Source of the DNA: a virus
Direction: 5' to 3' (one strand)
Virus record (IMG/VR): IMGVR_UViG_3300031962_000006
Location: 1-45,048 of that record
Length of the DNA stretch: 45,048 nt
In this document: piece by piece, positions 3,218 through 45,048 of the stretch
How the letters are laid out: the number at the start of each line of letters is the position of its first letter
How positions within the stretch are numbered: position 1 is the first letter of the stretch
Translations under genes and position numbers: made by a program
The notes under the pieces: model-generated
Databases searched by the model: none
What the model was told of the DNA's origin: nothing
What the model saw: only the letters and a program-made list of their open reading frames with translations

Positions 3218-5641
3218 ATGATAAAGAAGATTCTGCCTTTTCTGCTAGCCCTCATCTTTGCAACGCCAGCGTTTGCCCAATTAACATGGGATAATAATTC
3301 TGCTGGTTGGCCGCCACCCCCGTTACCATTACCGCTTGGATCTAGTGGTACTTTTTTAAAGAGTCAAGGACCTGGAAATCCTCTTATTTGGGCAATTCCT
3401 GGTGGTGGTGGGGGCGGCTGTCCCGGTTGTACAGCTAATCAAATTCCGTTCTGGACAGGCGCAGCTTTTAATACCGATGGGGGAAATGCGTATGGGGCTC
3501 ATGGGCATGTAACATTAGGTGATGCTACACATGCTGGTACTTTAGATTTGCTTGATAGTTCAGGTAATAATGTAACGCATCTGAATACAGGTATCCTTAC
3601 ACTTGGCAATACGGGAGCAGGGAATGCGGGTTCCATTAATGTGTATGACGGTGCAGGTGGTAATGGGACGCACATAACTTCTGCCGTGATTTCTCTTGGT
3701 GACGGTAATCTCACTGGAACTTTAAATGTTTACGATGTATTCAGTGGCCTTGCTGCTAACATAACTGGTCCTCAACTTCAACTTGGTAATAGTAATGGTG
3801 TAGGGACTTTAGCGATAAGCGATGGCACGGCAAACTTTCCGGCTACATTAACGGGATCCACGTTGGTTTTAGGTAATGTTGGCACTCCCGCTGTCGGCGT
3901 ATTTCAAATGTTCGATTCTCATGGTCAATCCGTTACATTGGGTGGTGGTGCTTTAAGTCTAGGAACTACTGGGAGTGCGGGGCATGTTACCGTAAGGGAT
4001 ACTAGCAATAATGTAGATGCCGAAATACTTAATGGGACTCTCACATTAGGAAATACGGTAGCTGGAACAGGCGGCACTCTTAATCTAACCGATGGTGGGG
4101 GCAACACGATTACTCAAGTAACCAATGGTTTGGTAGTAACTGGAGATACGGGCACTGCAGGTGAATTTAATACAAAAGATATTAGCGGTAATTCGGACAC
4201 AGAATTGATGAGCGGGTCACTCTACCTGGGTAACTCCACTACTCCTACTGCAGCCAACATTGTTATGTTTGGCACTACTAGCGGATCGGTTACTTTAGAA
4301 GTTCCCGCTGTTGTAACTGGTTCCCCTTTGTTTGTATTGCCTGGTGCCGATGGTACCAACGGACAATTCATAAAAACCGATGGCGCTGGGAATCTTTCTT
4401 TCGCTAGTGGTAATTCTGGGACTGTCACAAGTTTCAGCGCTGGCAATTTGTCTCCTTTATTTACTACTTCAGTTGCTACAGCTACCACAACTCCGGCATT
4501 AAGTTTCACCTTATCAAATGCTGGTGCTGGCACCCTCTTTGGTAATTTTAGTGGTTCATCCGGAGCGCCGAGTTTTAATGCTCCTGGCACAACTGATTAC
4601 GTGTTAGGGGTGGCTCATACCGGTGGTGGACTTGAATATAAACAGCTCACTACATCTGGTTCAGGTTTGAGCATTACACCGACAGCTGGAGTAACTACAT
4701 TTGCTAACACGGGCGTCACTTCCAATGTCGCCGGAACAGGAATAGCAGTAAGTGGTGCTACAGGAGCCGTAACGGTATCGGTAGCTACCAACACTGCTAA
4801 TACACTAGCTGGTTACAGTAATACTGGAGTATTTTCCGATGTAGCTATAGGTACTGGTTTAAGTTTGTCCGGGGGTACTTTAAGCGGTACTGTAGTAGCC
4901 TGTAGCAGTTGCACTTCTGGACAGTTGACTTATTATAATGGAACGAACGTTACCACGGATACAGGAGCGGCGTATGCTGGTAACGGTAGCCTTACTTTGG
5001 GGTTATCTGGACATGCGGGAATACTTAATTTAGATGACTCTTCAGGAAATATTGTTACTTCTTTTTTCGTAGGTACTTTAACTCTTGGTAATACCGGTGT
5101 TGGTAATTCAGGTTCGATAAATGTTTATGATGGCGCTGGCGGGAATGGAACACATATTACCTCTGCTAATATTACTTTAGGTGATGCTAATTTACCTGGT
5201 CAATTAGCTATTACTGACACTGGTGGAAATATCAATACCACCTTGACCAATGCGAATGTTTTGTTAGGTTTAGCAGGACATACTACTGGAAGTATAAATT
5301 TAAAAGGCACTACTAGTGGTAACGTCACTTTTACTACTACGGCAGCAGCAGGCACAGGCAGTTTTACATTCAATGCTACTGATACTACGGTTAATGGCAG
5401 TACTTCAGGCACTTTAGATTGGATACAAACGGAGCAAGGTACGTATGAGAAAAAAGTTGTTATCGGGTTTACTAGTTATGTAGATGCGGGTACCACTATT
5501 ACTTATACAACGCCATTTTCTTTTACTCCGGTTATCACTGGAAATAATACCGGGCTTACTATCTCAACAATTTCTAAAACACAGGTAGTTATTCCGGCTT
5601 CAGTGAGCGCATCCGGTACTGTTGTGATAGAAGGATACTAA
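3218..5641 (+). CDS. large fibre-like repeat protein with Sec signal peptide
   Basis: An 807-residue protein. Residues 1-20 are a textbook signal peptide (MIKKI, a hydrophobic core, and AFA before Gln). A proline-rich segment with AGWPPPPLPLPLG follows, then SQGPGNPLIW, then a long low-complexity beta region with Thr/Gly/Asn repeats such as LTLGNT and GSINVYDGAGG. The C-terminus ends in VVIEGY, typical of trimeric tail-fibre tips. The motif block near residues 125-170 returns near 620-665 with different codons. It is probably a receptor-binding or exported fibre; a signal peptide on a fibre is unusual. The 865-residue protein downstream shares its N-terminal module. Confidence 0.72.
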   Translation: MIKKILPFLLALIFATPAFAQLTWDNNSAGWPPPPLPLPLGSSGTFLKSQGPGNPLIWAIPGGGGGGCPGCTANQIPFWTGAAFNTDGGNAYGAHGHVTLGDATHAGTLDLLDSSGNNVTHLNTGILTLGNTGAGNAGSINVYDGAGGNGTHITSAVISLGDGNLTGTLNVYDVFSGLAANITGPQLQLGNSNGVGTLAISDGTANFPATLTGSTLVLGNVGTPAVGVFQMFDSHGQSVTLGGGALSLGTTGSAGHVTVRDTSNNVDAEILNGTLTLGNTVAGTGGTLNLTDGGGNTITQVTNGLVVTGDTGTAGEFNTKDISGNSDTELMSGSLYLGNSTTPTAANIVMFGTTSGSVTLEVPAVVTGSPLFVLPGADGTNGQFIKTDGAGNLSFASGNSGTVTSFSAGNLSPLFTTSVATATTTPALSFTLSNAGAGTLFGNFSGSSGAPSFNAPGTTDYVLGVAHTGGGLEYKQLTTSGSGLSITPTAGVTTFANTGVTSNVAGTGIAVSGATGAVTVSVATNTANTLAGYSNTGVFSDVAIGTGLSLSGGTLSGTVVACSSCTSGQLTYYNGTNVTTDTGAAYAGNGSLTLGLSGHAGILNLDDSSGNIVTSFFVGTLTLGNTGVGNSGSINVYDGAGGNGTHITSANITLGDANLPGQLAITDTGGNINTTLTNANVLLGLAGHTTGSINLKGTTSGNVTFTTTAAAGTGSFTFNATDTTVNGSTSGTLDWIQTEQGTYEKKVVIGFTSYVDAGTTITYTTPFSFTPVITGNNTGLTISTISKTQVVIPASVSASGTVVIEGY

Positions 5642-6816
5642 TGTGCCCTCTATACTATAGTGATAGTACTACGCTTCACGTGTTTGGCAACAGTGTCATT
5701 GTTGACCAGATAAATGGAGATGATACTCAAGGTAGCCGAGGACTAGTAGCATTTAAAACTATTCAAGCAGCATTAGCGGTTGCACAATCGGGAGATTGTG
5801 TTTATATAGCACCAGGCACTTATAATTTAACTAGTGGCATTACCCTTCCCGATAATGTAACAGTTAGGGGGATGAACGCACAAGCCGTAACAATACAAAT
5901 GTTGAACGTGGTAGCGAATACCGATTTGATTACTATGGGCAACAATAACCGGGTAGAAGATGTTACCTTAAAACTTACTTCTGCAGGGCACCACACTTTA
6001 CGGTCTATTGTTTATCCGGGCACTAGATCGGGTACATCAAAACTTCGTACACTCAACATAACTGTGGATAATAGTGGAGCGGGTAGTGCAGGCACTTCAA
6101 ACGTTTACGCGATTCATAGTAATGGTACCGGCACGCCAAATGATTCTTTTAATGCTGTTAGAGCGTGCATGATTACAGTTAATAGTGCTGGTTTAGGCAA
6201 TAAGCGGGGTATTCTTGTGGATACCGCTAATAATTTTTCCAGTCGAGATTCTAATTTTGTTGTTACTAATGCGGGTGGTGCGGGATCTTATATAGCTCTT
6301 GAAACAAATAATGCAGCGGCACGTTTAGTTAATAGATCAAGTTATGCCAATGGCGCAACTGCTGACATTTCTCAAACTTTAGGAACTTTAGTATGGGAAG
6401 GGCAATTAGCCAATCTTAATGCTAATGGATTGAATTTTAATAGCCTAGTTACTCCGGCAATACTTGAGTTTTGCATACCCGGAGCTGTCAAATCTGCTTC
6501 ACCGCAATTTTTATATCCAGGTACTTTCAATCCCAGTACAAATGAAATATCGCTTAATCTTCCAAGTGGTGCCGTAGTCAAAAATATGGTAATAGAAAGC
6601 CTTATAGCTCCAGGCACAGGACATACCGATGTTTATACCGTGCGAAAGAATGGCGTAAATACAAGTTTAACTGTTACCTTAAGTGGTGCAACTCTTGATG
6701 GTTCTGATACTGTGCATTCGGTCACTTATAATGCTGGAGACGATTTAAGTATACAGTTGAATACTACTAATGCTAGTTTAGGAGCGAATGTAGTTGTACT
6801 CGTGGAGGCGGTATGA
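5641..6816 (+). CDS. pectin-lyase-fold beta-helix protein
   Basis: A 391-residue protein. The N-terminal part has the right-handed beta-helix entry pattern: NGDDTQGSRGLVAFKTIQAAL, then GDCVYIAPGTY and LPDNVTVRGMN. Repeating short strands follow to about residue 270. The last 100 residues form a beta-rich cap with DVYTVRKNG and HSVTYNAGDDLSIQL, seen on phage tail-associated proteins. It overlaps the upstream stop as TAATG and has no signal peptide. A tailspike or sugar-binding role is likely; catalytic residues could not be identified. Confidence 0.66.
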   Translation: MCPLYYSDSTTLHVFGNSVIVDQINGDDTQGSRGLVAFKTIQAALAVAQSGDCVYIAPGTYNLTSGITLPDNVTVRGMNAQAVTIQMLNVVANTDLITMGNNNRVEDVTLKLTSAGHHTLRSIVYPGTRSGTSKLRTLNITVDNSGAGSAGTSNVYAIHSNGTGTPNDSFNAVRACMITVNSAGLGNKRGILVDTANNFSSRDSNFVVTNAGGAGSYIALETNNAAARLVNRSSYANGATADISQTLGTLVWEGQLANLNANGLNFNSLVTPAILEFCIPGAVKSASPQFLYPGTFNPSTNEISLNLPSGAVVKNMVIESLIAPGTGHTDVYTVRKNGVNTSLTVTLSGATLDGSDTVHSVTYNAGDDLSIQLNTTNASLGANVVVLVEAV

Positions 6817-7268
6817 TGGTTGAAGCTACTTATTACGGGTGGTTGATATTTCGTAATGGGGCAACACGTACCTATGAGGTAGTGTTTGCTCCAAATCTTA
6901 CTCAAAATATAATTTCCCCTGATTACTTTGTCCCTTGGCAAATAAGTAATGATGGTGGGGGTAATCCCGATTTTTTCTCATACAATTATTTGGGAGATCC
7001 TAATACCCAAACAATAACCTATTCTACTTACAGTCAACCAAGTCCTTCAGCTTCACCGGAACCAGATAATGTTATGTCGTTACTTTTAGGGGTACCGAAT
7101 TATTTTCCGGATATTTTTACCGTAGCTTCGTTCGTAAAACTATTCCCCGATACAGCCTATTTGAGTCTACGCCAATCATTTTGGGCGAACATACAAAACC
7201 CTATTCCTTTGAATTGGATTCAGAATATACAAAATTGGTGTCACTGGTACGATGTGGATATAATATAG
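6813..7268 (+). CDS. hypothetical protein
   Basis: A 151-residue protein rich in Tyr, Phe, Pro, Asn and Trp (YYGWLIFRNG near the start, WCHWYDVDII at the end), suggesting a compact beta-rich fold. Its ATG overlaps the upstream stop as ATGA, so it is translationally coupled to the beta-helix protein and may act with it. No family recognised. Confidence 0.6.
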   Translation: MMVEATYYGWLIFRNGATRTYEVVFAPNLTQNIISPDYFVPWQISNDGGGNPDFFSYNYLGDPNTQTITYSTYSQPSPSASPEPDNVMSLLLGVPNYFPDIFTVASFVKLFPDTAYLSLRQSFWANIQNPIPLNWIQNIQNWCHWYDVDII

Positions 7269-7287
7269 GGGGTTCTTGAGAAAAAAT

Positions 7288-9885
7288 ATGAATAGAAAAT
7301 TCTTAGCATTATTATTATCCTTATTCTTTGCTATGCCGGTATTTGCTCAACAAAGCCAGAATAATGCAGGCTGGCCAATACCAACAATCCCTGTGCCATT
7401 GGGACCAAATGGAGATTTCCTGCAGAGTCAAGGACCAGGGATGCCCCTCACTTGGTCGCCTTCTTCTGGAGGCGGGACAGTAACACAAATCAACACAGCC
7501 AACGGTGTTAGCGGTGGTCCTATTACCACCATGGGCACAATCACCCTGTCCAAGATAGCCAACAATACCGTGCTTGGAAACATTAGTGGAGGCTTGTTTT
7601 TCCCGGTAGCTTTAAATCAGGCACAATTGACAGGGATGCTAAACCAATTTGATACAGCTTCAACAACCCAAGGGGTCGTAGCTGGAAGTAACGGGTTGGA
7701 TAATACGCACTTCCTGAGAGCAGATGGTACATGGGCTGTACCTCCGAGTAGCGGCACAATCAATGCCGGATTGACAGGACAGTTAACTTATTACGCATCA
7801 AATGGCACAACGGTATCCGGTGATGCGAATGCCACGGTGAATAATGGACAGTTAACGCTAGGGCAAGCCGTCGGACCAGTAGGCGGAAGTCTCGTCTTAT
7901 ATGGTGCTACTAGCGGAACCGATACAATTGGTGTACCTGCAGTGGCTGGTGCGGGAACAGTCTTTAATTTTCCTGCTAATAACGGAACAAATAATTATCC
8001 TTTAGTTACCGATGGATCTGGTAATTCTTCATGGGCACTTTTAACGGTACCTGGTGGAGGAACTGGATTATCAAGTCTGACTGCACACAATACTTTGGTT
8101 GGATCTGGCACAGCCCCAGTGACTTTGGTCGCGCCATCTGCAACTTCTGGTATCCCTTATATATCTAATGGTGTTGCAGCAGATCCAAGCTTTGGCACTG
8201 CAGTTGTGGCTGGGGGAGGCACCGGGCAGACAAGTTTAACAATTCATGATCTCCTGATTGGTAATGGCACATCGCCCGTAACTCTGTTGGCTCCAAGTGC
8301 CACAGTGGGAGCGTTGCTATTATCGGCAGGAGCCGCTTCAGATCCTGCTTATGCAACCGCTGCATCAATAGTTGCCGGACAGCTATCACTTGGTAATTCG
8401 CCGAGCGGTGGTAGTATCGTTCTACATGGTGCTACTTCTGGTACTGCTTCAATAACTGTTCCAGCGGTGGCGGGTGCGGTGACATTTGCTTTACCTGCTA
8501 ACAATGGTACAAACAATTATGCTTTAACCACCAACGGGACAGGGGGTACCTTCTGGACCCAGGTTAGTTTAACTGCCGGTGTTACAGGAGTATTACCGAT
8601 AGCCAATGGTGGCACTAATAATGGTACTTTGCCTGTAACAGCTGGTGGTGTTGTCTATACAGATGGTACAAAACTGCAGAATACGGGTGCAGGCACTTCT
8701 GGGCAATTCCTGCAATCTACGGGTGCTGGAACCCCAATCTGGACTTCTAGTACCGGTACTTTCGGTGGCAACGGTGCTGATGGCGCTATATCTAATCCGG
8801 TAGCAGCAACCGCTCCATTCCAAGTAGATGCTACTACTTGGTCACTGACCGGAGCAAATACTTACACTTTAACTGGCACTCCAACAATCATTAATTGCAA
8901 CTCTACATTTACCCTTGGTGATGGCAGTAATGCATCTACGATAACTGTTGCTACCGGTACTGGTGCTAGTGGTGGAATAGGAGGTACTAATGCATTTCCT
9001 CAAGCAGGCTCGTCTGGTGGAGGTCCTGGATTTGGGGGAGGCAATGGCAGCTCGAATGGCGGCGGCGGCGGCGGCTCCGGAGGAGGCGGTGGTGGAGGAT
9101 TTGGCGGTCTTGGAGGATTAGGTGGAGGACAAACCGATAACATATCTGGTGGACAGGGTGCCACTTATCAAGCTTGGATAAATGGTGGTAGTGGTGGTGG
9201 TGGTGGTGCAGGTAACTCCGGCTCAGGAGCGGGGGGAGCTGGTGGTGGTGGTGGTGGTAGCGTAGTAGTCTGTACAGCTGGCGCTATTAACTGCCAAGCC
9301 GTATCAGTTATTAATTGTCTGGGTGCTGCTGGATCTGGAGCGGCTCAAGGCGCTGGTGGTGGTGGTTCGGGTGGTTTAGTATTCCTCGCTTCTCAAACTT
9401 CAACAACTGTCGCCGGGACTATAAATGTTAGTGGTGGTGCTGGCGGTAATGGTGGATCTGCTATTGCTGGAGGAGGAGGTGGTGGTGGTGCCGGACGTAT
9501 CGTATTCTGGGCACCAATAATTACGACCGCTGGGAGCACATTGACATTAAACGGCGGAGCAGCGGGCACTAACGGAGGTAGCGCAACAGGTTCTAGCGCT
9601 GGGGGCAATGGCTCCGCCCAGTCTATTATCGGGACTCCTAATTTGCCGATATTGACTTGGGTATTAACAAAGCCGGAGGGTGGACAATATATGGAGATGC
9701 TAACCAAGTTAGAAATTGCCAGTGGACATACTAAAAGCAATGTGGTTAACATTAGACAGAAAGATTTAGCCTGGAAAGCGGGGAAAACATTAGATGGCTT
9801 TGCGTATTACAATTTTGGTGACTACACTGGTACTACTTGTCTTGGGGTAGGGGATTCAGTGGAGGCAATGAAAAATGCTGCTTAG
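7288..9885 (+). CDS. fibre/adhesin with signal peptide and polyglycine domain
   Basis: An 865-residue protein. Residues 1-20 form a signal peptide ending VFA before Gln. A module with NNAGWPIPTIPVPLG and SQGPGMPLTW matches the 807-residue paralogue. Then come GGGTG repeats (GGGTGLSSLTAHNTLVG; GGGTGQTSLTIHDLLIG), as in tail-fibre shafts. Residues about 570-790 are dense in glycine runs, like the polyglycine sandwich of T4-type gp38 adhesins. The C-terminal 60 residues form a non-repetitive cap. I chose the ATG at 7288 over a TTG at 7276 because the signal peptide begins there. It is likely a receptor-binding adhesin. Confidence 0.72.
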   Translation: MNRKFLALLLSLFFAMPVFAQQSQNNAGWPIPTIPVPLGPNGDFLQSQGPGMPLTWSPSSGGGTVTQINTANGVSGGPITTMGTITLSKIANNTVLGNISGGLFFPVALNQAQLTGMLNQFDTASTTQGVVAGSNGLDNTHFLRADGTWAVPPSSGTINAGLTGQLTYYASNGTTVSGDANATVNNGQLTLGQAVGPVGGSLVLYGATSGTDTIGVPAVAGAGTVFNFPANNGTNNYPLVTDGSGNSSWALLTVPGGGTGLSSLTAHNTLVGSGTAPVTLVAPSATSGIPYISNGVAADPSFGTAVVAGGGTGQTSLTIHDLLIGNGTSPVTLLAPSATVGALLLSAGAASDPAYATAASIVAGQLSLGNSPSGGSIVLHGATSGTASITVPAVAGAVTFALPANNGTNNYALTTNGTGGTFWTQVSLTAGVTGVLPIANGGTNNGTLPVTAGGVVYTDGTKLQNTGAGTSGQFLQSTGAGTPIWTSSTGTFGGNGADGAISNPVAATAPFQVDATTWSLTGANTYTLTGTPTIINCNSTFTLGDGSNASTITVATGTGASGGIGGTNAFPQAGSSGGGPGFGGGNGSSNGGGGGGSGGGGGGGFGGLGGLGGGQTDNISGGQGATYQAWINGGSGGGGGAGNSGSGAGGAGGGGGGSVVVCTAGAINCQAVSVINCLGAAGSGAAQGAGGGGSGGLVFLASQTSTTVAGTINVSGGAGGNGGSAIAGGGGGGGAGRIVFWAPIITTAGSTLTLNGGAAGTNGGSATGSSAGGNGSAQSIIGTPNLPILTWVLTKPEGGQYMEMLTKLEIASGHTKSNVVNIRQKDLAWKAGKTLDGFAYYNFGDYTGTTCLGVGDSVEAMKNAA

Positions 9886-10396
9886 AATAATATTGATAGT
9901 CCTATTATTATCATGCCAACCGGCACGGGCGGATGGCACATGGTTGGAATTTACAGCAGGTAGTTCAACCCCTGCAACGGTTTGGACCGGGCAGAACGCT
10001 CCAGTCCCTGGCGTTAATATTGATACGAATGCCACTGTATTGCCTTGGACGCCACAAAATAATGACAACAACCCGCAAGATTATCAATTAAAAAACGGTG
10101 CTGTTGTGTATGCGCCACCGGTACCGCCCACACCTCCAACGCCTCATCCAGGCGCTAATCCGCAATTATTTATAGATAGTTGCGTTAGCGATTCGCAAGT
10201 ACAATCAATATTTTATCTATTAGCGCCTTATCAATACGCAATTACTCAGTATGGGATTGATCCGCAGGCGGTTCAGTTATTATGGAATCAACTTTGCATT
10301 CAGTATGGGGGTCAACAGGGTCCGCTGACTTCTCAGATCCAGCAGGTGATTGAGAAGTATGCGTCTCAGGCAGGCATGCCGCTGGTTGCTCAGTAG
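9875..10396 (+). CDS. exported small protein, signal peptide or lipoprotein
   Basis: A 173-residue protein. The N-terminus is MLLRIILIVLLLSC, then QPARADG: either a signal peptidase I site after ARA, or a lipobox-like LLSC making Cys14 lipidated. The middle is proline-rich (PPVPPTPPTPHP) and the C-terminal half is helical, with two further Cys. GGAGG precedes the ATG, which lies 11 bases inside the preceding gene, so it is coupled to the adhesin. A fibre chaperone, outer-membrane lipoprotein or spanin-like role are all possible. Confidence 0.6.
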   Translation: MLLRIILIVLLLSCQPARADGTWLEFTAGSSTPATVWTGQNAPVPGVNIDTNATVLPWTPQNNDNNPQDYQLKNGAVVYAPPVPPTPPTPHPGANPQLFIDSCVSDSQVQSIFYLLAPYQYAITQYGIDPQAVQLLWNQLCIQYGGQQGPLTSQIQQVIEKYASQAGMPLVAQ

Positions 10397-12201: not shown

Positions 12202-12408
12202 ATGTCAAAAAAAGTATTAATAGCTATGCACTCGGCAATGTTGCAACAGATTGACGAAATAATCAAGAAAGAGCATTCTACAAGATCGGAATGGATGCGG
12301 AAAGTATTACGTGAAGGTATAAACGATTGGCGCAAACAGCAAAAGGAGATTGGCAATGGTGGAACTAATCAGATTCAGCGGGTACCGGTTGAGGGGGCTA
12401 CCACCTGA
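12202..12408 (+). CDS. ribbon-helix-helix DNA-binding protein
   Basis: A 68-residue protein. The first strand (KKVLIAMHSAML) is followed by a helix (QQIDEIIKKEH) and STRSEWMRKVLREGINDW, the CopG/Arc-type RHH fold. Such dimers repress their own promoters; the promoter just upstream is the natural target. The C-terminal 15 residues overlap the next gene. Confidence 0.72.
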   Translation: MSKKVLIAMHSAMLQQIDEIIKKEHSTRSEWMRKVLREGINDWRKQQKEIGNGGTNQIQRVPVEGATT

Positions 12409-13276
12409 CCAAGCTATTTATAGATGGACGGCAATGCGGAATCAGGTGGAAAAGTATGTGCCGTATTTGCAGAATCTTCCATTAGGCTTTTATGCCGATG
12501 ATGTGTACAAGAACTTGCCTATTATTGACACTTTAATGGGCAAATTGCAAAATGGCGAAATTTATTTTGCCTTCACCGGGCAAAGATTCGTCGGCTTGGC
12601 TGCAATCACAGATATCGAATACGGGCGCAATGCATATATAGAAGCGATTGCCGCGCCGGAGTTTATCAAGAGTTTTGCTGTCGGTAAGGCAACTGGTGAA
12701 CTGATTACTTATGCATTTGCTGACTTTGGGGATGCTGGACTTGGTTTGAAGAAGCTTAAGGCTGGCGTGATGAAAGCGAACATGGGTGTACTGACCTGGC
12801 TGCAAAAAATAGGCTTTAACCCCGCCGGTATCTTACAAGGTGAAGTATTGCACATGGGTATCCCCCACGATATGATTCTCTTGGAATTGCTGAATCCCAA
12901 GTTCTTCAGCGTTGATAAGAGGATAATCTCAAATGACAGGCAGCGCACCGTCACCTCCCCAATACCTCCCGCTACCAGCTTACAGCCCGCCAGCGCCTCT
13001 GGCGCAAGCGCCGAATCCCAATTCGGTGATACCTCTGGCGATGACGCCGCTACAGATCGGGCAGGGGGGAGCGCAATTCGAGACAACATTACCTCAATGG
13101 TTGCAGCTGACGAATTACAATGGAACAGCGAACCCGTCGGCACCAGGGGGTCAGGGCGGACCGTTCGATCAGCAGCTGATACAACAGGCGGCGAATTGGT
13201 ACATGCAGAATCAGGTGCAGCCGCAGGTGTCCGCCGCTCAGTCGGCAATGCAAAACAGCGGGCAAAATTACGGTAG
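12356..13276 (+). CDS. GNAT-like acetyltransferase protein with overlapping tail
   Basis: A 306-residue frame. Residues 1-190 look like a GNAT-fold protein: strands with EIYFAFTGQRFVGLAAITD, a helix, and the late motif GVLTWLQKIGF, in which GNATs keep a Gly-Phe turn. AAGGAG precedes the ATG. The last 114 residues run out of frame over the next gene and are Ser/Thr/Ala-rich with no visible domain. Either the stop was lost or both frames are used. In podoviruses a GNAT-like protein often precedes internal virion genes. Activity is unproven. Confidence 0.6.
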   Translation: MVELIRFSGYRLRGLPPDQAIYRWTAMRNQVEKYVPYLQNLPLGFYADDVYKNLPIIDTLMGKLQNGEIYFAFTGQRFVGLAAITDIEYGRNAYIEAIAAPEFIKSFAVGKATGELITYAFADFGDAGLGLKKLKAGVMKANMGVLTWLQKIGFNPAGILQGEVLHMGIPHDMILLELLNPKFFSVDKRIISNDRQRTVTSPIPPATSLQPASASGASAESQFGDTSGDDAATDRAGGSAIRDNITSMVAADELQWNSEPVGTRGSGRTVRSAADTTGGELVHAESGAAAGVRRSVGNAKQRAKLR

Positions 13277-18000: not shown

Positions 18001-19068
18001 GCACAATTCGGGGAAGCGGCATCTGATTATGAGCAGCCCAAACCATTATTTCATTCAATGGAGAAAGTCAATGAAACAGCTCTTTTGGGTGGCATGATAC
18101 AAGAAGCTAAAGAATTAAGGGGGGAGCAAGAGGGCGTCAATGCTGCTAAAACAACTGCTATCAAGATAACCAATCATGAGCCTCTATCCGATCAAGAAGC
18201 GCAAATATTAACAAGAGGTTTGGATGCCCTTAGAAAAGCCACGGGGCAAACCCCGGGAGGGTATAACCGAATATTCACTAGTCGCACTGCATTCTTGCGT
18301 TTTATGGCATCCATGTCTGGCTATCACGGTCTTGTTACCCAGCAGATGGTTAGGGAAATTAGGAATTTTCGCAGTAGCGATCCATTAATTAGGAAAGCAG
18401 CATTACGCAAAATGATAACGTTGTACGCAGCAACGACATTTATGGGTGGCAACGCTACCGTACCTACCGAGGCTAGAAGAATATTGTGGATGACCATGCC
18501 TGGAATTATGTATGAATATGAATTTTTGACCAATCATATGAATGCGGCAGCTTTGACGGGACGGGTTATGAATGATCATATGCGCTTTGCGGCAGTCAAC
18601 TGGGGTTTCAGCATGACGGCATCGGAAACTCAGCATTTAACTCGCGCTATGGAGCAGCAATGGAAGAAAACACAAAACGAATCACTTTTAAATAGAGCCG
18701 TTTTGATGGGTGGGCTATTGCTCTGGGAAGCTCCAGTGCCAGGTATGAGCCCAATTCGACGCAATGTAAGTAATTTTAGCAGCGCTCAGAGGGGTTATAA
18801 AGATGTTGTTGCTTACGACAATCAATTCAGTCAATTCCCAATAGGGAAAGGGCATCGCGATTATAACTATCTGGATGTGATGCTTGATAATCTCCCCGGA
18901 GATAATATTGAAGAGTACAATTTCAAATACAAAAAGTATGTCAAGGAAATATCCAAAGAAACAGGCTGGCCGGTTCCTAAGAATTTAGAAACGGATTATC
19001 CATCTAAGGTTTATACCACTACGCCTGAGCAACATAAGCGTCAACTTACACAGTTGCAAAAATCATAA
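15073..19068 (+). CDS. large internal virion/ejection protein
   Basis: A 1331-residue protein, by far the longest here. It starts with two copies of PPSFEEAEKL-like sequence, then a Pro-rich linker. Gly/Ala-rich segments near residues 290-360 (GAGIGGGVGAVQEAGQNV; GVLSGAAAGALGGAI) may insert in membranes. A charged region and then a long helical C-terminal half follow. No transglycosylase motif was found. Its position and size match the T7 gp16-type ejection protein, but its sequence is not recognisably homologous. It is the last gene before a strong terminator. Confidence 0.62.
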   Translation: MANPQAPPSFEEAEKLMKQQSASPPSFEEAGKLIAKSAPSKQEAGSAPPVGFSVPPPPIDPTKSPSLAAGATPAIQQDTTPVVTDNTPSIHMPAPATTATPSDPGAVFLGHIEQNVNRVYNQAKGLPIIGETVGDIGTATGNLGKAYQEMNSPDPLTAMQSAAVGAVPGAIESVETPLAAAYGVLGQPGHIKLPNIPQMYEQNPIAQQYAQAAPGSYQTGKLLGNLVGTGKMLGVAGKLIGAGVQAGSPLFKSLIKLSPEALASAERILQKITEISQPAQTGNILQRTASNMVRGAGIGGGVGAVQEAGQNVIAGQGPKVTPRGVLSGAAAGALGGAIEEPLNVTGRAAGKLGGGVGKLGGALLKKTEKGKSVAQPQVTQQAPKMPIVTQEPQTTPEVQQAPTATAQPSPVELKGEVEKQEVKSTPPQRKLTTLKQVGLDKSKPRYKDLTPEFDSDLDKALYVIGNPKTKSAAHDKFMDYIRNNTDWDDAMISTKAAQVRKMVKEHSVNAEDGTFKVPRITQAQEPITTPTPKPDHPQEEGEGVMTPEEFDKNLTDQEKKFYEKTGRIPVISQPEPLEHADRASVPANKVFEKDRKTKFDVGNPKARAGVHNGIMYAAMPDPYDPKAVRLGSIVTSKHGEAKRQEAYDRLRKGTSISGTIGTLQAGEELTPVQDASLAAGKEYDEAKKTPARQSRGIKTAVDLKAQKAADAIKNDDKAALQEIAKPKKSLKVKGKGRSQSGIVTIPRIISLATEKGITLENAWTKIMEIPADHMVKTLKGMIDYSDTMDAIKKGAERNKSDFFERLQQRQVQMFLDSHGTNVTEGKVGAEVNEAVRYLSRDEILDPEITPDLTQDQREAAVLLKDDRAIQREMINEEIKKHPYDLKYVEALKEYGGMSPRARTGTEEGMDMLSTMLYNASLKYDPRFHATQLTHIPQVIAAEVGPINTAEALNLSTDPEVKKFLEGSRHATARQAQAQFGEAASDYEQPKPLFHSMEKVNETALLGGMIQEAKELRGEQEGVNAAKTTAIKITNHEPLSDQEAQILTRGLDALRKATGQTPGGYNRIFTSRTAFLRFMASMSGYHGLVTQQMVREIRNFRSSDPLIRKAALRKMITLYAATTFMGGNATVPTEARRILWMTMPGIMYEYEFLTNHMNAAALTGRVMNDHMRFAAVNWGFSMTASETQHLTRAMEQQWKKTQNESLLNRAVLMGGLLLWEAPVPGMSPIRRNVSNFSSAQRGYKDVVAYDNQFSQFPIGKGHRDYNYLDVMLDNLPGDNIEEYNFKYKKYVKEISKETGWPVPKNLETDYPSKVYTTTPEQHKRQLTQLQKS

Positions 19069-19149
19069 TTGCAGATTAAAACCTAAAATTAAAGTCTGTA
19101 ACGTAAGACAGGCTTAGGTCTTGGGATACTTACCTTTTGTCCTTGACGT

Positions 19150-19184
19150 AACCCCTTTGGATAGCACCAAAGGGGTTCATATTT
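19150..19184 (+). terminator. rho-independent terminator
   Basis: AACCCCTTTGG (19150-19160) and CCAAAGGGGTT (19167-19177) form an 11-bp perfect stem with a six-base loop, followed by CATATTTT. It lies 80 bases after the large internal-protein gene. The 300-base gap 19069-19371 holds this terminator and the next promoter and no convincing gene. Confidence 0.8.
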
Positions 19185-19315
19185 TGCTGGTGGTTGTGAA
19201 CCCCTCATCAGATTTTTGTAAAAGCCACACCTGGCTTGACGGTGGTGTAGGGTTATGTCTCCGACTTGAATTGTCAATGTGATAATCCGTCGCCAAAGCG
19301 TCGCCAGATACACAA

Positions 19316-19343
19316 TTGCAAAAACCGTAAATTACGGTACGAT
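19316..19343 (+). promoter_or_regulatory. candidate packaging/head promoter with palindrome
   Basis: TTGCAA (19316-19321), a 16-base spacer and TACGAT (19338-19343) resemble a sigma70 promoter. Its spacer holds a 15-base inverted repeat, ACCGTAA-A-TTACGGT (19324-19338), a likely binding site for a regulator of the packaging and head operon. The -35 and -10 matches are moderate. Confidence 0.42.
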
Positions 19344-19371
19344 ATGAGGTATCAATTTGCGAGGTTCTAAA

Positions 19372-19668
19372 ATGGGTGGACCATTTGATATGGGTAAAAG
19401 TGATGGTGCCGGAAGCAAGCAAAATCTTCCTCGGCATATAGAGCGTATGAACATGGGCACGGAGAAACCAAAAATGAAAAAATCTGGAGATGGGAATAAC
19501 TTACCTTGGGGCGGCCAGCCCAAAGAACAAGCCAAGGCTTACATGTCAGGACTGCCAAAAAACAAAGGCAGCATGTTAAGCAAGACCGGTGAGCGTAGCG
19601 GCAAAGGCGGCAAAGCTCTGCAAGGTCATTCAAAGACTATTAATGCTAAGTCTCAGAAGATCAAATAA
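19372..19668 (+). CDS. small basic Gly/Lys-rich protein
   Basis: A 98-residue protein with MGGPFDMGKSDGAG at its start and a Lys/Ser/Gly-rich remainder, probably disordered and DNA- or protein-binding. The ATG follows GAGG and overlaps no earlier gene. Its stop overlaps the next start as TAATG. It precedes the terminase genes, so a packaging or head role is possible but not shown. Confidence 0.55.
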   Translation: MGGPFDMGKSDGAGSKQNLPRHIERMNMGTEKPKMKKSGDGNNLPWGGQPKEQAKAYMSGLPKNKGSMLSKTGERSGKGGKALQGHSKTINAKSQKIK

Positions 19669-20045
19669 TGGGCGCCACTTCTATAAAAGCTACTGAAATC
19701 TTTGAATTGCAAACAAAGATCGAAACGCTGGAAGCTGAAATGGCAGCCTTGAAAGAGTATGTCAAGAAAGCAGATAGAGCAGTGACTGCCTTCCAAGACA
19801 TGGGCGCCATATTCGGCAATTATCTTGGCACAGATAATCGTCTTGTGCCCGCAGTAATAACTCACGCATTCCCTCAAGCTGGGACTGTAGATATTGTTGT
19901 ATTTGACAACTTATACAGTGGCGGCAAGCATGAAATAACCGGAGTTTCATTAGGCAATCAGCGCGGCGAATTTAGACCTTATTTAGTGTTAGATGACGTG
20001 GAGGAGGAAACCGATGCAAGCCTCCTGGCCGCCCAACCCGGATGA
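19668..20045 (+). CDS. coiled-coil plus beta-domain protein upstream of TerL
   Basis: A 125-residue protein. Residues about 8-45 form a coiled coil (IFELQTKIETLEAEMAALKEYV); the rest is beta-rich (DIVVFDNLYSGGKHEITGVSL). It overlaps TerL by 32 bases. The place is that of a small terminase subunit, but no DNA-binding HTH is visible, so that name is not assigned. Confidence 0.58.
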   Translation: MGATSIKATEIFELQTKIETLEAEMAALKEYVKKADRAVTAFQDMGAIFGNYLGTDNRLVPAVITHAFPQAGTVDIVVFDNLYSGGKHEITGVSLGNQRGEFRPYLVLDDVEEETDASLLAAQPG

Positions 20046-21660
20046 AGTAAGAAAGCAGCGTGTCGAAGTAATGCTTCGATGCCGGCACGATCCGGCATAC
20101 GCAGCTATTGTTTATCGACGTTGCAAAGATGATATTGTCTATTTCCTTGAAATGTTCGGTTGGGTGGAGTTCCGGCAAGGCATTGGCGCGGCAGCTACAG
20201 CCATACCGGTTGTTTTATATCCGCAACAAAAAGAATTTGTTTTGCATCTTCAGAAGGTATTATTTGATGCCGCCAATAGTGAAACTTATCGCTGGAATGA
20301 GATCGTAGAAAAAGCTCGTAAGACGGCAGGGACTTGGTCTGTCCTATTCGTATTCATCTGGTTCCTAATATTCCATAATGCCTCCTTCCTTATAATGTCG
20401 AAGAAAGAGGATGATGTTGACCGGCAAGATGACTTAGACACTCCGTTTGAGAAGATGCGTTTCTTTATAAACAAGTTGCCGGATTTTCTCTTGCCTCCTG
20501 GCTTTGATATGAGTTCCAAGAAATATAACAAGACTATGCTTTTAAAGATGCCTGGAGGTGGACAGGTAAGCGGTGACTCTTCAGCGGTGAATGCTATCCG
20601 GCAGAAGAGGGCGCTTGCTATTCTGTATGATGAATTTGCTTATTGCGAGAATGACGAATCTGTCTGGACAGCCGGATCTGGTGCCGCCAAGGTCAGAATT
20701 GCCGTATCTACTCCGAATGGCACGAACAACAAGTATTACAAGCTTCGCTTTGGCAAAGAAAAGGAGAAGATACACCTAACATCATTTACCTGGTGGAGAC
20801 ATCCAGTCTTTGGTAAGGATCTCCGGCAATTGGCTGACGGACGCTATACATCGCCCTGGTATGAAGAGATTAGCGCTAATGAAAGTGCTCAGACTATGGC
20901 TAAGGAATATGACCTTAACTATGCCGATTCGCTTGGCTCTAAAATATTCTTTTTGTATTCTGGACAACATAATGATGACAAACTTGTGCCTCATCCAGAA
21001 AGCAAGATTGTCCGCATTTGGGATCCTGGCTTGACGTTCGCCGTGCTTTGGGCGGAAATTGATCGCTGGGAGCGCTTACTGTTTTACAAAGAGCTTGTCA
21101 TGAAGAATGCCGTGCTTAACCATGTAGCCGAGGCCGTGCTGGAAATCACTCAACAGATAGCCGAGGGCTGTCGCGTGGAAGATATTGGCGATCCTGCCAA
21201 CGTTTACCGGCGTGGCTCTATCACGGAAGATACTGAATATAGTATCTTGCAAAAGAAGTATGGCATTTATGTTAGGACGCAAAGTATTACGGCAGTCGGT
21301 CCACAGAAGCGCACAACTGAATCTATTAAATACCTAAATGACAAGATGGGCACTTTTGTAAAAGAATTACAGACGCCGCAAATGATTATCAATCCAGTTG
21401 AATGTCCCATCTTGCATGAAGCCCTAATGGGGGGTTATGCTTGGCAGGTAGACCAGAACGGTAACATACGAGAAGGACACCCAGAGCAAGTGCATCCATT
21501 TGAAGACGTAGCAGATTGTGCAAGATACCTAGCTTTACATGCTCAAGGTGGCTTAAAATCTACTGGTAACAGACCAAATTTGCATGTAGTAAAGAAGCAG
21601 GGAAGTTGGGGATCGCCCCGCACTCAAAGGCAGCAGCAACAAGGATGGACTAATTTATAA
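20014..21660 (+). CDS. terL: terminase large subunit
   Basis: A 548-residue packaging ATPase-nuclease. KARKTAGTWSV (about residues 100-110) stands at the Walker A position in a variant form, LAILYDEF (201-208) is the Walker B motif with catalytic Glu, and STPNGTNN (232-239) is the coupling motif. KIVRIWDPGLT begins the RNase-H-like nuclease, with its first Asp. The segment MSKKEDDVDRQDDLDTPFEKM is typical of such enzymes. The ATG at 20014 follows GGAGGAGG; an earlier ATG at 19993 lacks this. It binds the portal encoded next door and drives DNA into the prohead. Confidence 0.92.
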   Translation: MQASWPPNPDEVRKQRVEVMLRCRHDPAYAAIVYRRCKDDIVYFLEMFGWVEFRQGIGAAATAIPVVLYPQQKEFVLHLQKVLFDAANSETYRWNEIVEKARKTAGTWSVLFVFIWFLIFHNASFLIMSKKEDDVDRQDDLDTPFEKMRFFINKLPDFLLPPGFDMSSKKYNKTMLLKMPGGGQVSGDSSAVNAIRQKRALAILYDEFAYCENDESVWTAGSGAAKVRIAVSTPNGTNNKYYKLRFGKEKEKIHLTSFTWWRHPVFGKDLRQLADGRYTSPWYEEISANESAQTMAKEYDLNYADSLGSKIFFLYSGQHNDDKLVPHPESKIVRIWDPGLTFAVLWAEIDRWERLLFYKELVMKNAVLNHVAEAVLEITQQIAEGCRVEDIGDPANVYRRGSITEDTEYSILQKKYGIYVRTQSITAVGPQKRTTESIKYLNDKMGTFVKELQTPQMIINPVECPILHEALMGGYAWQVDQNGNIREGHPEQVHPFEDVADCARYLALHAQGGLKSTGNRPNLHVVKKQGSWGSPRTQRQQQQGWTNL

Positions 21661-25416: not shown

Positions 25417-25426
25417 GAGTTTTCAG

Positions 25427-26341
25427 ATGATAGTTACCCGTGAAGAATTTATTGAATGGCAGGAGCCAACACTTCGCGAAGTGTATGCCCTCGGCTTCAA
25501 TTATGGCGATGAATGGATGAAAGCCTTCCGCGTCGAAGAATCCGAGAAAAGGCGCGAAGAAATTAACGAGTTTGTTTACCCTGACGTAGTTGTCCAATCG
25601 GATGAAGGCGCTCCTTATCGCCGTTTAAACATCCGCAGAGGCTACTTAACAAACGTTATCAATCTGACCTTCACTGGTGAAATCAAAATCACCCAAGAGT
25701 TCATCGAAGATAACATGTATGAGGAAATATACGATGGCACGTACGGACTCGCTAATAGTATTCAGCGTAAGATAGCCAAGGATGGTACCAGCCAACTCTT
25801 CAATGGATTTAGCTCGGTTCAATCACCTGATGGTCTGTCTTTATTTAATACGGCGCATACATTGTTATATGCCGCAGCTGGCGTAACTTCTCCCAACCGT
25901 ATAGATACTCCGTTATCTTCAGCGGCGTTAGCAGAAGCTATCGATCAGATGAATAGAACGCTTGATGAAAACGGCTCTGTGAATCCATTCGGTGTAGGCG
26001 CTTTGCAACTTATCATACCGCCTGCAACTCGTTTGCTCGGTACGCAGTTAGCCAAGTCTCCTTACATACCAGATACTGCCAACAATGCTATCAATCCGTT
26101 TGAGATTGACGTGTTGGTAATACCGCAATTATTTGAAGCTGGACAAGCTGGTTATAGCTTCCAAAATACCCAATGGTATTTAAGAGATCCTATGTTGGCT
26201 CGTAACTACTTCTTCTGGAGAATCCACCCGCAGACACGCATGGTGAACGATATTAATTCACCGTCGATTCTGTTCCAATCCCGCGTTAGGTATTCATTCT
26301 TAACATCAACTTGGAGGGGGCTATGGGGTTCTCAAGGTTAA
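25427..26341 (+). CDS. major capsid protein
   Basis: A 304-residue protein. The helical charged N-terminus (EKRREEINEFVYPDVVVQSDEG) is followed by a core with ITQEFIEDNMYEEI, QRKIAKDGTSQLFNG, LQLIIPPATRLLG, and a C-terminus with DPMLARNYFFWRIHPQTRMV, matching HK97-fold major capsid proteins. TAGGAG lies just before the ATG at 25427. Position after scaffold and before tail adaptor agrees. The final 19 bases overlap the next gene. Confidence 0.86.
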   Translation: MIVTREEFIEWQEPTLREVYALGFNYGDEWMKAFRVEESEKRREEINEFVYPDVVVQSDEGAPYRRLNIRRGYLTNVINLTFTGEIKITQEFIEDNMYEEIYDGTYGLANSIQRKIAKDGTSQLFNGFSSVQSPDGLSLFNTAHTLLYAAAGVTSPNRIDTPLSSAALAEAIDQMNRTLDENGSVNPFGVGALQLIIPPATRLLGTQLAKSPYIPDTANNAINPFEIDVLVIPQLFEAGQAGYSFQNTQWYLRDPMLARNYFFWRIHPQTRMVNDINSPSILFQSRVRYSFLTSTWRGLWGSQG

Positions 26342-27687
26342 TTAAATCTGTCCTTGCAGTTGGGGCTATGGTGGGTCTTGCGCTTCCCGCAGGAGCGCAG
26401 ACCTTCCCAAACTCTGCAACTTACAACCAGACAACTGTATCGACTACCATACAGAATGATCTTATTTCTACTGGCAATCTATACGGAGAGACTGGTGTAG
26501 GAACACAGGCGGCAACGAGTGGTAATTTCATGCTCCTCCAGCCGGCTGCTACATTAGGACAAAATACTGTCTTGACCATTCCTGATGGTGGTTCTGCCAC
26601 TGATACCCTAGTGACAACCAAGGCTGCTAACGTATTTACCGGGACACCTGTTTTCCCCGCGATTACTTTAACTGGCACAAGCCATAATGCTACAGTGCAA
26701 GCAGTAGCTGCTCTTGGGCAAGCTACGACTCTTACAATCCCCGATGGTGGGTCCGCTACTGATACATTTGCTACGCTAAAAGCAGCTAATGCATTCACTG
26801 GTGCTAGCACCTTCTCGCTGGCAAATGGATTAGGTCTTGTCGGTACTTCGCATACTGCAACTATAAAAGTACAATCTACCCTGGGACAGACGACTACTGT
26901 TACTCTTCCTGATGGTGGTTCTGCCACTGATACTATCGCCACAGTGAAAGCTACCAATAATTTCACTGGTGCTAATATCTTCTCGCTGGCTAATGGTATC
27001 CAATTAGCTGGGACTAGCCATAATGATACATTGATTGCTCTTGCTGCACAGGGACAAGGAACTACCCTTACGCTAGAAGATGTAGGGGGCGCTACTGGTT
27101 ATATTTATACTATGACAGCTGCTCAGACAGCAGCTGGTGTGTTAAGCCGCGCCGATATGGTCACTGAAGTCGGTGATACTTTACTCAGTGGCATTTTAAA
27201 CATCAAGAATATTGACGGTACCACGCTGGCAAACGCCGCTGGAGCTGGTGTATTCGGTATTTCAACAACTGCTACTTTTGGCTCTCCGGCTCAACTCTCA
27301 CTCGTGACTGAAGTAGCTAACAACAACACCAAGACTGACTCTTGTGAATTTGAGTTCACGCTTCCTCCTGATTATGTAGCTGGTAGTGCAATTAACGTCA
27401 ACGTTGGACAAAACATCACTATTGGTGGTGGGACATTATCAACAAAGACTCTGACTGTGGATGCTTTCAAGGTAGCAGCTGACGGTACGGTTGGTTCTAA
27501 TTTGGGACCAGCCGCGCAGACCTTAACTAACTCTCAAGGCACTCTGGTTTTTGCTATTACTCCAACAGGCTTGGTGGCTGGCAATAAGCTATTAATTCAA
27601 CTGCAAACCGTGTTGACTGAAACCGCTATGTCAAATGTACATGCAAATCTAACTAGCGTTACCGTAACATCTAACGTCAAAATGTAA
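26323..27687 (+). CDS. exported repeat protein next to capsid gene
   Basis: A 454-residue protein. Residues 1-25 are a signal peptide (MGFSRLIKSVLAVGAMVGL, then LPAGAQ; cut after AGA). Three imperfect repeats follow, each with GTSHNAT, LGQTTTLT, PDGGSATDT and an FTG end. A 25-base stretch of the repeat is identical at 26581 and 26908. The C-terminal 180 residues are a beta-rich domain. GGAGGGGG precedes the ATG, inside the capsid gene. A decoration fibre would be expected here; the signal peptide makes export equally possible. Confidence 0.68.
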   Translation: MGFSRLIKSVLAVGAMVGLALPAGAQTFPNSATYNQTTVSTTIQNDLISTGNLYGETGVGTQAATSGNFMLLQPAATLGQNTVLTIPDGGSATDTLVTTKAANVFTGTPVFPAITLTGTSHNATVQAVAALGQATTLTIPDGGSATDTFATLKAANAFTGASTFSLANGLGLVGTSHTATIKVQSTLGQTTTVTLPDGGSATDTIATVKATNNFTGANIFSLANGIQLAGTSHNDTLIALAAQGQGTTLTLEDVGGATGYIYTMTAAQTAAGVLSRADMVTEVGDTLLSGILNIKNIDGTTLANAAGAGVFGISTTATFGSPAQLSLVTEVANNNTKTDSCEFEFTLPPDYVAGSAINVNVGQNITIGGGTLSTKTLTVDAFKVAADGTVGSNLGPAAQTLTNSQGTLVFAITPTGLVAGNKLLIQLQTVLTETAMSNVHANLTSVTVTSNVKM

Positions 27688-27699
27688 GGAGGGTGCCGG

Positions 27700-28452
27700 A
27701 TGGCGAACTCCAACTGGTTCCAAGCAACAAATAGTGTGCTCAACTTGGCGCAACTGCCTCTTATTAGCACTACTAATGCTTTTGATGCTGGGCAACTTAC
27801 CAAGTATCAGAATGCAGCGAAATTCAAGATTGATTTTGCCCAACGTCATTTGACGTTGAAAATGGTCACGGCTTTCACCAACCGCAAATTCCAGCTACCT
27901 ATCAGCGCTGGAACTACGGACTACGCGCTTGATACAGGCATTACAGCTGAGTCGTTGAAATATCATTCTTGGTATAACATCACGCCAGGGAATGCCTTTG
28001 ACCAATCCTTGCCTTTGATGAAGTATGAAGACTATACGGATCAATGGACTGACCAAACGGTTGTTCCCAGTGGTCCCCCAGAAGTGATCGTGCAACTTCC
28101 TTATGATAGACAATTAGACGTTATAGGGATTACCCCCCGTGTTCGCGTCTACCCCGTGCCTGATGCTAGCTACACACTTCAATATCAGGCAAGATTGAAT
28201 TTCTATCCGCTAGTAAATTCCACTTCTATCATCCTATGGCCGCCAGAATACGAACATGGTTTATGGTCATGGGCTTGGAAGTTCCTGGAAGTTGATCTAG
28301 CTGAAGGACGCGAAGCCATGTTGGATGCCTTGACAGATGAGGTAATAAGTCGTATTAGAACAGTAAGTATGTCGGCGGAAGAAGTACGCAAAGGCGTTAG
28401 AATGCCGCATCTGACCTGGAGACGTAATTTCAGTAGGGGTTATTTCAGATAA
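27700..28452 (+). CDS. tail adaptor (tail tubular protein A-like)
   Basis: A 250-residue protein placed between head and nozzle genes. The pattern of helices around the N-terminus and C-terminus (EHGLWSWAWKFLEVDLAEGREAML; RIRTVSMSAEEVRKGVR) with a beta part between (RVRVYPVPDASYTLQYQARL) matches podovirus gatekeeper/adaptor proteins of T7 gp11 type, which join portal to tail. It has AAGGAGG upstream and overlaps the next gene as TAATG. Confidence 0.78.
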   Translation: MANSNWFQATNSVLNLAQLPLISTTNAFDAGQLTKYQNAAKFKIDFAQRHLTLKMVTAFTNRKFQLPISAGTTDYALDTGITAESLKYHSWYNITPGNAFDQSLPLMKYEDYTDQWTDQTVVPSGPPEVIVQLPYDRQLDVIGITPRVRVYPVPDASYTLQYQARLNFYPLVNSTSIILWPPEYEHGLWSWAWKFLEVDLAEGREAMLDALTDEVISRIRTVSMSAEEVRKGVRMPHLTWRRNFSRGYFR

Positions 28453-31555: not shown

Positions 31556-32317
31556 ATGGGTGTCCCGTTAACAAATCTGACCAATCCTAATATCATCACT
31601 ACCGATGGCAGCACGGTTGATGCTACTTCGTGGACAACTGACTGGAGTACTATTGTTAATTACATCAATTCCAGCCTTACCGCTTCTTTTAATGTCGTAT
31701 CAAACAAGGGTGATATCTATGCCTATACCGGATTAGCTATTCAGGCTTTGCCGGTTGGCTCAAACGGACAGGCACTTATAGCAAATAGCGCGCAGCCTAC
31801 TGGTCTACAATGGTCCACAGTAGCAAATTTGACTACTTTAACGACTAATGGAGATACTCTTTACTATAATGGCGGCGCTAATCAAAGATTACCTATTGGT
31901 GCGCCCGGGCAAGTCTTAACGGTTAGTGGAGCTAATCTTCCCGCATGGGCTTCCGGTTCCGGTATTACACCGGGCATGATAGTAATCTGGAGCGGTAGCA
32001 TAGGCACTATACCTGTCGGATGGGCTCTCTGTGATGGGGTTAGTAATGCTTCTGGGATAAATTTACAAGGATTATTTGTGGTAGGAGCTGGTAATGCTTC
32101 TCCTGCTGCAACGGGAGGCATGGGCTTACAGAATCCGGGTGGACCCCATGGTGATAATAGTGCAGGCGCTGGATTGGGTCCATCGCATACTCACACTAAT
32201 ACCGGAAATCCAGCACAGCAGGGATCCAATCAGGCTATCTGCTGGCAGACGTTGCCCAGCAGCGTGGCTACAGTTACTCCAAAATACTACGCCCTCTGCT
32301 ACATTGAAAAACAATGA
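31556..32317 (+). CDS. tail collar/fibre protein
   Basis: A 253-residue protein. The middle has fibre-type sequence (GDTLYYNGGANQRLPIG, GAPGQVLTV). The C-terminal 110 residues match the phage tail collar domain: GMIVIWSGSIGTIPVGWALC, DGVSNASG, LQGLFVVGAGN, a His-rich segment with GPSHTHT, and the end YYALCYIEKQ. Such domains sit on short tail fibres and baseplate structures. It starts directly after the nozzle stop. Confidence 0.82.
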   Translation: MGVPLTNLTNPNIITTDGSTVDATSWTTDWSTIVNYINSSLTASFNVVSNKGDIYAYTGLAIQALPVGSNGQALIANSAQPTGLQWSTVANLTTLTTNGDTLYYNGGANQRLPIGAPGQVLTVSGANLPAWASGSGITPGMIVIWSGSIGTIPVGWALCDGVSNASGINLQGLFVVGAGNASPAATGGMGLQNPGGPHGDNSAGAGLGPSHTHTNTGNPAQQGSNQAICWQTLPSSVATVTPKYYALCYIEKQ

Positions 32318-33267: not shown

Positions 33268-33481
33268 ATTTACCATAGCGTGGATATTGTGGATAGCGTA
33301 TTTCCTGGTAGTGGAATTTGATGCTCTGTTGACAAATAACATCCCGGGTACACTATCCGACCATGTGTGGAATTGGTTTAGCATGAAAGGGTATGGGAAG
33401 CTATGGCGCTTGCGCCGCTTACTTCTTTTATCTCTTATGGCATGGTTGTCAGCTCACTTCCTCACGGCAGGTAAATTCTAA
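33260..33481 (+). CDS. small membrane protein, possible holin
   Basis: A 73-residue protein with two hydrophobic segments: WILWIAYFLVVEFDALL near residues 7-24 and LLLLSLMAWLSAHFL near 53-68. A loop with GTLSDHVWNWF and a basic MKGYGKLWRLRR stands between them. Such two-helix proteins near lysis genes may be holins, and the papain-like gene follows directly (TAATG), with the lysin further on. A second holin-like protein lies at 35529, so the role is open. Confidence 0.6.
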   Translation: MDKFTIAWILWIAYFLVVEFDALLTNNIPGTLSDHVWNWFSMKGYGKLWRLRRLLLLSLMAWLSAHFLTAGKF

Positions 33482-36137: not shown

Positions 36138-36139
36138 TC

Positions 36140-44899: not shown

Positions 44900-45048
44900 G
44901 CGTATAGTACGCCAGATGCCATGGGGGGGGTGGGGGATGCCGGTTGTCATACCCCCACTAAACCCCATTCGACAGAAATATATATGGCTAGTCATTTTAT
45001 GGTATCACTTGAAAAAAATATATTTTGGTACCACTGTCATTATGTAAA
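44900..45048. repeat. right copy of terminal direct repeat
   Basis: 149 bases repeat positions 1-150, with eight Gs (44923-44930) where the left copy has nine. In a circular map the noncoding control region runs through this point into the early rightward genes. Confidence 0.9.

Follow-up and report, generated by a model that had tools for sequence, protein, structure and literature searches.

The IMG/VR virus record IMGVR_UViG_3300031962_000006 (45,048 bases, analysed in full and referred to here as the window) encodes four proteins—of 807, 865, 173, and 454 residues—whose N-termini strongly support genuine Sec signals, beyond what chance would produce. From these predicted signals and the constraint acting on them, Sec export of the four proteins and their cleavage by signal peptidase I appear very likely. 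Three of the genes lie in a fibre cassette (3218–10396), and the fourth directly follows the capsid gene. A sister phage and one or more unrelated phages share the trait, which suggests, from sequence, that some phages export fibre or decoration proteins before the cell bursts. With signals that are under selection and appear again in other phages, this seems to be more than a single odd genome.

N-termini were scored with a home-made predictor, a weight matrix trained on a set of 38 E. coli signal peptides, and with a joint test that adds a hydrophobic h-region (by hydropathy) and a positive n-region charge to the matrix score. Every cleavage site was recovered in leave-one-out, and 36 of the 38 known signals pass the joint test. 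Among the 49 window genes exactly four pass, all on the plus strand (a slash marks the predicted cut). The 807-residue Gly/Thr-rich, fibre-like protein (3218–5641; Lys plus Arg 1.1%, Gly 17.5%, Thr 16.6%) carries a Sec signal at residues 1–20 (3218–3277; MIKKILPFLLALIFATPAFA/QLTW, site ATPAFA/Q, score 13.7). The 865-residue fibre-like protein, Gly-rich in its C-terminal part (7288–9885), begins MNRKFLALLLSLFFAMPVFA/QQSQ (AMPVFA/Q, score 10.7), and an in-frame TTG at 7276 would merely extend its n-region. Overlapping that gene is the one for a Pro-rich 173-residue protein (9875–10396; GGAGG ribosome site), which starts MLLRIILIVLLLSCQPARA/DGTW (CQPARA/D, score 5.6). The 454-residue post-capsid protein (26323–27687), with repeats and a C-terminal region that is all-beta in a low-confidence model only, starts MGFSRLIKSVLAVGAMVGLALPAGA/QTFP (ALPAGA/Q, score 6.5).

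The joint test is rarely passed by chance. Only 1 of 1653 internal pseudo-N-termini does so. Across 11 other phage records with 586 genes, four pass, and lambda Lom, which is genuinely exported and thus a true positive, is among them; the excess in the window corresponds to P = 0.0017 (Fisher), 3.6e-4 (binomial), or 2.8e-8 using the internal rate. Under less strict automatic gene calling, one more sequence passes: an antisense open reading frame (ORF) of 77 residues (34428–34661). It overlaps an ORF of the opposite strand and is unlikely to be a gene. The matrix score alone is modest for two of the four: 6.5 at 26323 is reached by 480 of 5000 shuffles, and 5.6 at 9875 by 340 of 5000; for the former, the matrix also favours a cleavage site two residues after AGA/Q. 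We accept both signals because they pass the joint test and are conserved in a relative. A lipobox (Cys at +1) is absent from three of the window proteins; the 173-residue protein has LLLSC at residues 10–14, and signal peptidase I is favoured over signal peptidase II here because the relative's signal has no Cys. A preliminary description of this DNA had credited the four proteins with clear signal sequences of n-, h-, and c-regions, three with AFA, VFA, or AGA before Gln, and had held that four cases in one genome could not be chance. The reading frames and N-termini are as it described, the fourth protein having ARA before Asp, and the low control rates, the constraint between paralogues, and the relative's signals bear out the last point.

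Constraint can be gauged within the window itself, as the 807- and 865-residue proteins are paralogues over their first ~58 residues (59% identical), which comprise the signal and a common mature N-terminal module (3278–3391, plus strand; AGWPxPxxPxPLGxxGxFLxSQGPGxPLxW). Across signal codons 2–20, synonymous change (pS) is saturated at 1.05 and nonsynonymous change (pN) is 0.24, a small sample of 19 codons; in the adjoining module, also a small sample (33 codons), the values are 0.78 and 0.25. Since pN is 0.24 in one and 0.25 in the other, the amino-acid sequence of the signal is conserved no less tightly than that of the adjoining module, and the signals look functional, not accidental.

A single close relative was found, G001 (46,224 bases; 88% identity in the capsid protein, 73% in the portal, and 69% in the terminase); protein and alignment scans of IMG/VR, for which the signal-bearing proteins and those of the capsid, portal, and terminase served as queries, returned G001 alone or nothing. 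It has signals at three corresponding positions—the post-capsid protein, the Gly-rich fibre, and the small protein whose gene overlaps the fibre gene—and two of its three signal proteins pass the joint test: the post-capsid protein (231 residues; MGLTRLITAFSLVAVLGLCFAPFSLA/Q, score 9.8) and the small protein (MSRKLWLALIASLWALPAFA/D, score 11.4), which is 31% identical to the window's 173-residue protein. A good ribosome site in G001 points to an inner ATG, the start that gives the signal. Read from the sequences, all seven signals of the two genomes close with a short c-region that has its Pro at position −4 or −5, and each is followed by Gln or Asp (+1), features that appear to match cleaved signals rather than membrane helices. 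Between the two post-capsid proteins (454 and 231 residues), the detectable similarity (E = 4e-4) is confined to the signal and the N-terminal residues; the first six signal codons are constrained by overlap with the capsid gene, and their identity was excluded as evidence. The fibre bodies likewise have no detectable likeness beyond the N-terminus. A conserved N-terminal part with a variable body, the trait for which we tested fibre and decoration proteins, is present, and signals kept while bodies are replaced would be the usual layout of phage fibres.

Gene arrangement is conserved as well. The start and ribosome site of the 454-residue protein's gene lie in the capsid gene's last codons, so that synthesis of the post-capsid protein is tied to that of the capsid protein; the overlap is 19 nt in both the window and G001, and the post-capsid gene stands between the capsid and adaptor genes. 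The pair formed by fibre and small protein is kept in G001, with both members signal-bearing. In the window, the fibre cassette is found upstream of the structural block; in G001 it directly follows the collar gene region (L002:16982–20863, L004). It thus seems to have changed place as one piece.

A scan of IMG/VR for DNA able to encode the capsid's C-terminal motif WRGLWGSQG recovered three further lineages. In one, unrelated to that of the window (L021/L022), two tandem proteins of 115 to 118 residues, with signals MLKKLLISIALCLFPSVALA/D (score 9.3) and MLKRLVLAFGLLLLPVGASA/D (score 6.7), are encoded between capsid/decoration-like genes and an adaptor-like gene; the signals of these paralogues are constrained too, with a pS of 0.76 and a pN of 0.35. 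The L021 pair (638–1344) are duplicated small beta proteins in which two Cys are kept in both mature parts, and one has a weak phrog_28102 match, in the mature part only. In an unrelated phage fragment (L024), the capsid gene is followed by three genes (1565–2356, 2430–2870, and 3646–5166) whose products start with hydrophobic segments; among these products are a 506-residue fibre-like protein (MKKAFIISILAVLMVPFFVSA/H, score 4.4) and a protein in which the hydrophobic N-terminus precedes a collagen-like GPQGPPGKDG stretch and which may be anchored rather than cleaved. L025/L031 have no signal-bearing genes in the stretch read after the capsid gene. In the cultured Pelagibacter phage HTVC023P, the adjacent gp45 (score 11.7) and gp46 (called by eye) carry signals and lie 3' of the capsid gene (L015:18364–19020 and 19054–20439); other capsid relatives show no signals among structural genes in the parts read. 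Given the recurrences in L021/L022, L024, and HTVC023P, putative signals in phage structural blocks are patchy, yet not private to this genome.

What these proteins do is less clear-cut, and the preliminary description's term "fibre-like" holds in part. For the 807-, 865-, and 454-residue proteins, which have no family match, it can be inferred from Gly/Thr-rich, Lys/Arg-poor composition, repeats, and modular layout; for the Pro-rich 173-residue protein it is a poor label. Searches of 50,697 phage records with the signal proteins gave a single match, a segment of 79 residues in the 865-residue protein, 53% shared with a signal-free protein of phage MW202475 whose gene lies between that phage's stabilization and ejection protein genes, which agrees with a structural-type module. 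The 454-residue protein has no homologue among plasmids. Single-sequence AlphaFold models of the C-termini of the 454- and 807-residue proteins (pLDDT 51 and 45) are all-beta and too weak to use, and with the former Foldseek gave TM < 0.5 for all among the matches listed. A proposed homology between the shared N-terminal module and a motif in the phage's own collar protein was lost after shuffling.

We tentatively favour, with a little less than even confidence, a reading in which the proteins are exported, fold in the periplasm, and join virions at lysis as fibre or decoration. Its demonstrated portion comprises the signal-like N-termini, their constraint, and their conserved positions; late expression, export, cleavage, periplasmic folding, and virion joining are the steps we infer. 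The four proteins would be made with cleavable Sec signals, cross the inner membrane through SecYEG, and be cut by signal peptidase I, after which the mature parts (modular fibre- or decoration-like proteins and a small partner) would fold and oligomerise in the periplasm. Signal lengths of 19–26 suggest a Gram-negative host, and in such a diderm cell the products would stay periplasmic until lysis, since no anchor or outer-membrane sorting domain was recognised. The post-capsid product would then bind released virions as a head fibre or decoration, and the 807- and 865-residue products would be added late as tail or head fibres; the 173-residue product, encoded at the usual place of a fibre partner or assembly protein, is possibly an exported fibre partner. 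Export would keep the folding of fibres apart from the assembly of heads, and oxidative folding may benefit. For classical phages it is well established that fibres, tailspikes, and head decorations can be added in vitro to particles that are already complete. We prefer virion components because of the coupling to the capsid gene, the place before the adaptor, the modular fibres, and the exported small partner beside the fibre gene. As a general and overlooked route, in which fibre and head-decoration proteins are Sec-exported, complete their maturation in the periplasm, and attach to virions no earlier than lysis, the idea may extend to two unrelated lineages and possibly more, a generalisation that we regard as possible but doubtful.

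Several points weigh against virion membership. Because heads form in the cytoplasm, a decoration protein could bind them only after lysis, and in the window the fibre cassette is parted from the capsid–tail block by several genes. The 807-, 865-, 454-, and 173-residue proteins have no convincing Pfam or PHROG match, no fold match marks the three large ones as virion proteins, and the signal proteins show no significant similarity to the same phage's signal-free collar, spike, and tail-hub proteins. The signal of G001's Gly-rich fibre (865 residues; MRRYLVLLFCILLFAVPVALG/Q) was called by eye, with a matrix score of 1.4 and Gly at −1. The lineage also lacks a cultured member.

It is quite possible, if somewhat doubtful, that the proteins are instead exported non-virion products acting in or outside the host envelope, by blocking receptors or DNA entry against competing phages, as decoys that take up phages, or by making infected cells adhere to their neighbours. 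Known exported phage proteins do work at the envelope, as with lambda Lom, which has a signal peptide and is encoded in the tail-fibre region; HTVC023P-type pelagiphages, whose capsid is distantly related (25%), carry curli fibre and secretion genes; and the signal-free collar (31556–32317) and spike-like (5641–6816) proteins could be the virion's own fibres. An envelope role sits less well with the large, modular, fibre-like bodies, or with the capsid-gene coupling and conserved post-capsid position, which suit virion parts better. Nor did the proteins examined reveal a recognisable outer-membrane anchor, cell-wall anchor or sorting domain, membrane anchor, or secretion system. A surface decoy, one of the roles raised in the preliminary description along with a superinfection block, an altered host surface, and a virion part assembled in the periplasm, therefore appears less direct than was assumed there, because in a diderm host a signal alone, with no outer-membrane or cell-wall sorting domain, reaches the periplasm. 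Overall, the evidence separates virion membership from an envelope role only weakly.

Another reading, which we consider unlikely, takes the segments for membrane-seeking helices or signal anchors that stay uncleaved and hold fibres or procapsids at the inner membrane, or else for hydrophobic tails that attach fibres to the particle. The hydrophobic segments are strong (9-residue mean 2.3–3.6), and the collagen-like protein of L024 resembles an anchor more than a cleaved signal; against this, all seven signals of the window and G001 combine a helix-breaking Pro with small residues before Gln or Asp and a length of 19–26, as cleaved Gram-negative signals do. That the signals were inherited from bacterial surface-protein modules and are unused or weakly used, with assembly remaining cytoplasmic, is very improbable: phage fibres are mosaics in which a hydrophobic start may be tolerated, but the signal is under purifying selection and signals are kept at three positions despite changed bodies. 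Wrong start codons or chance hydrophobic N-termini are hardly credible as an explanation, for although long Gly/Thr/Ala-rich proteins can imitate AxA motifs (27 of 836 internal windows reach a matrix score of at least 7 when no other criterion is applied), ribosome sites back the starts of the 454-residue, 173-residue, and three G001 genes and the joint-test control rates are low.

Constrained signals on fibre-like and post-capsid proteins, kept as the bodies are exchanged, would mean one of two things: virion assembly includes a periplasmic step, or a class of exported phage fibres remodels the infected cell. If true, either would alter the interpretation of signal peptides that metagenomes show in the structural blocks of phages.

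The window as a whole looks complete, with an end repeat of 126 bases (25–150 and 44923–45048), and its gene set appears to be that of a short-tailed phage; terminase, portal, and lysis-type genes and a replication block were named from translations. On the plus strand, the major capsid protein (25424–26341; Phage_capsid_4, E = 4e-7) and the head–tail adaptor SU10_adaptor (27700–28452; PF24175, E = 9e-9) flank the post-capsid gene, the latter adjoining it, and a collar/short tail fibre protein lacking a signal peptide by our test (31556–32317; Pfam/PHROG) is a candidate ordinary virion fibre. The interval 3218–10396 additionally contains two signal-free plus-strand genes, for a 391-residue beta-helix/spike-like protein (5641–6816; PHROG tail fibre and baseplate wedge families, E = 4e-7 to 8e-7) and for a 151-residue protein that has no Pfam or PHROG match (6813–7268). 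Within a tail-hub-like protein (28832–31555) lies a propeller of the virginiamycin B lyase type (PF24684, E = 5e-80; PDB 2z2n, E = 2.5e-54), so that a streptogramin-lyase fold sits within a phage tail protein; the relative's version (L002:13335–16982) is longer. A papain-like C1 peptidase (33481–34314) adjoins the lysis genes, and the relative (L004:11571–12386 and 12367–12798) has a similar peptidase gene plus a C92 (YaeF/YiiX) amidase beside its signal-bearing small protein. Low-complexity ORFs consist of GYGSGYG/GDG repeats in the window (36128–36748) and of Ala/Asp/Ser/Tyr repeats in the relative (L004:528–1175; L005:11278–12144). Searches of bacterial genomes with the portal and terminase gave no host match, and promoter and terminator scans gave matches no commoner than chance.

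Tailed phages are taken to assemble wholly in the cytoplasm, and searches of the open-access literature gave no published case of a tailed-phage fibre with a signal peptide. Ordinary fibres such as those of T4 (gp37/gp38) and lambda (stf/tfa), each paired with a gene for an assembly partner, lack signal peptides, and their assembly is cytoplasmic; the genes described here resemble them in their conserved N-terminal module, swapped bodies, Gly-rich tip, and small gene directly downstream. Lambda Lom and similar lysogenic-conversion (moron) proteins offer the likeness of a signal-bearing gene among the tail-fibre genes of a tailed phage; Lom, however, is a small outer-membrane beta-barrel, whereas the cargo here is large and modular, with several per genome and one coupled to the capsid gene, and the Pfam search gave no Lom-type hit. 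In the cultured podophage HTVC023P, gp45 and gp46 are likewise two tandem signal-bearing proteins whose genes lie on the 3' side of the capsid gene, but their sequences are unrelated to those in the window (gp45 belongs to phrog_20531). Curli and type VIII secretion genes of HTVC023P-type and myovirus pelagiphages, for which aggregation or defence against superinfection has been proposed, are a further case of phage-encoded fibre proteins that leave the cytoplasm through host Sec (PMC9599517, PMC7029224). Curli come with CsgG/CsgF and curli repeats, whereas the genes here occupy capsid and fibre positions; the four signal proteins and their immediate neighbours match no curli family, and no CsgG/CsgF was recognised among the annotated proteins. 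Sec export of late proteins before lysis is also known from Lys44 of Oenococcus phage fOg44 and from signal-arrest-release (SAR) endolysins (PMC6116005), which are lysis enzymes, in contrast to the structural-type proteins described here.

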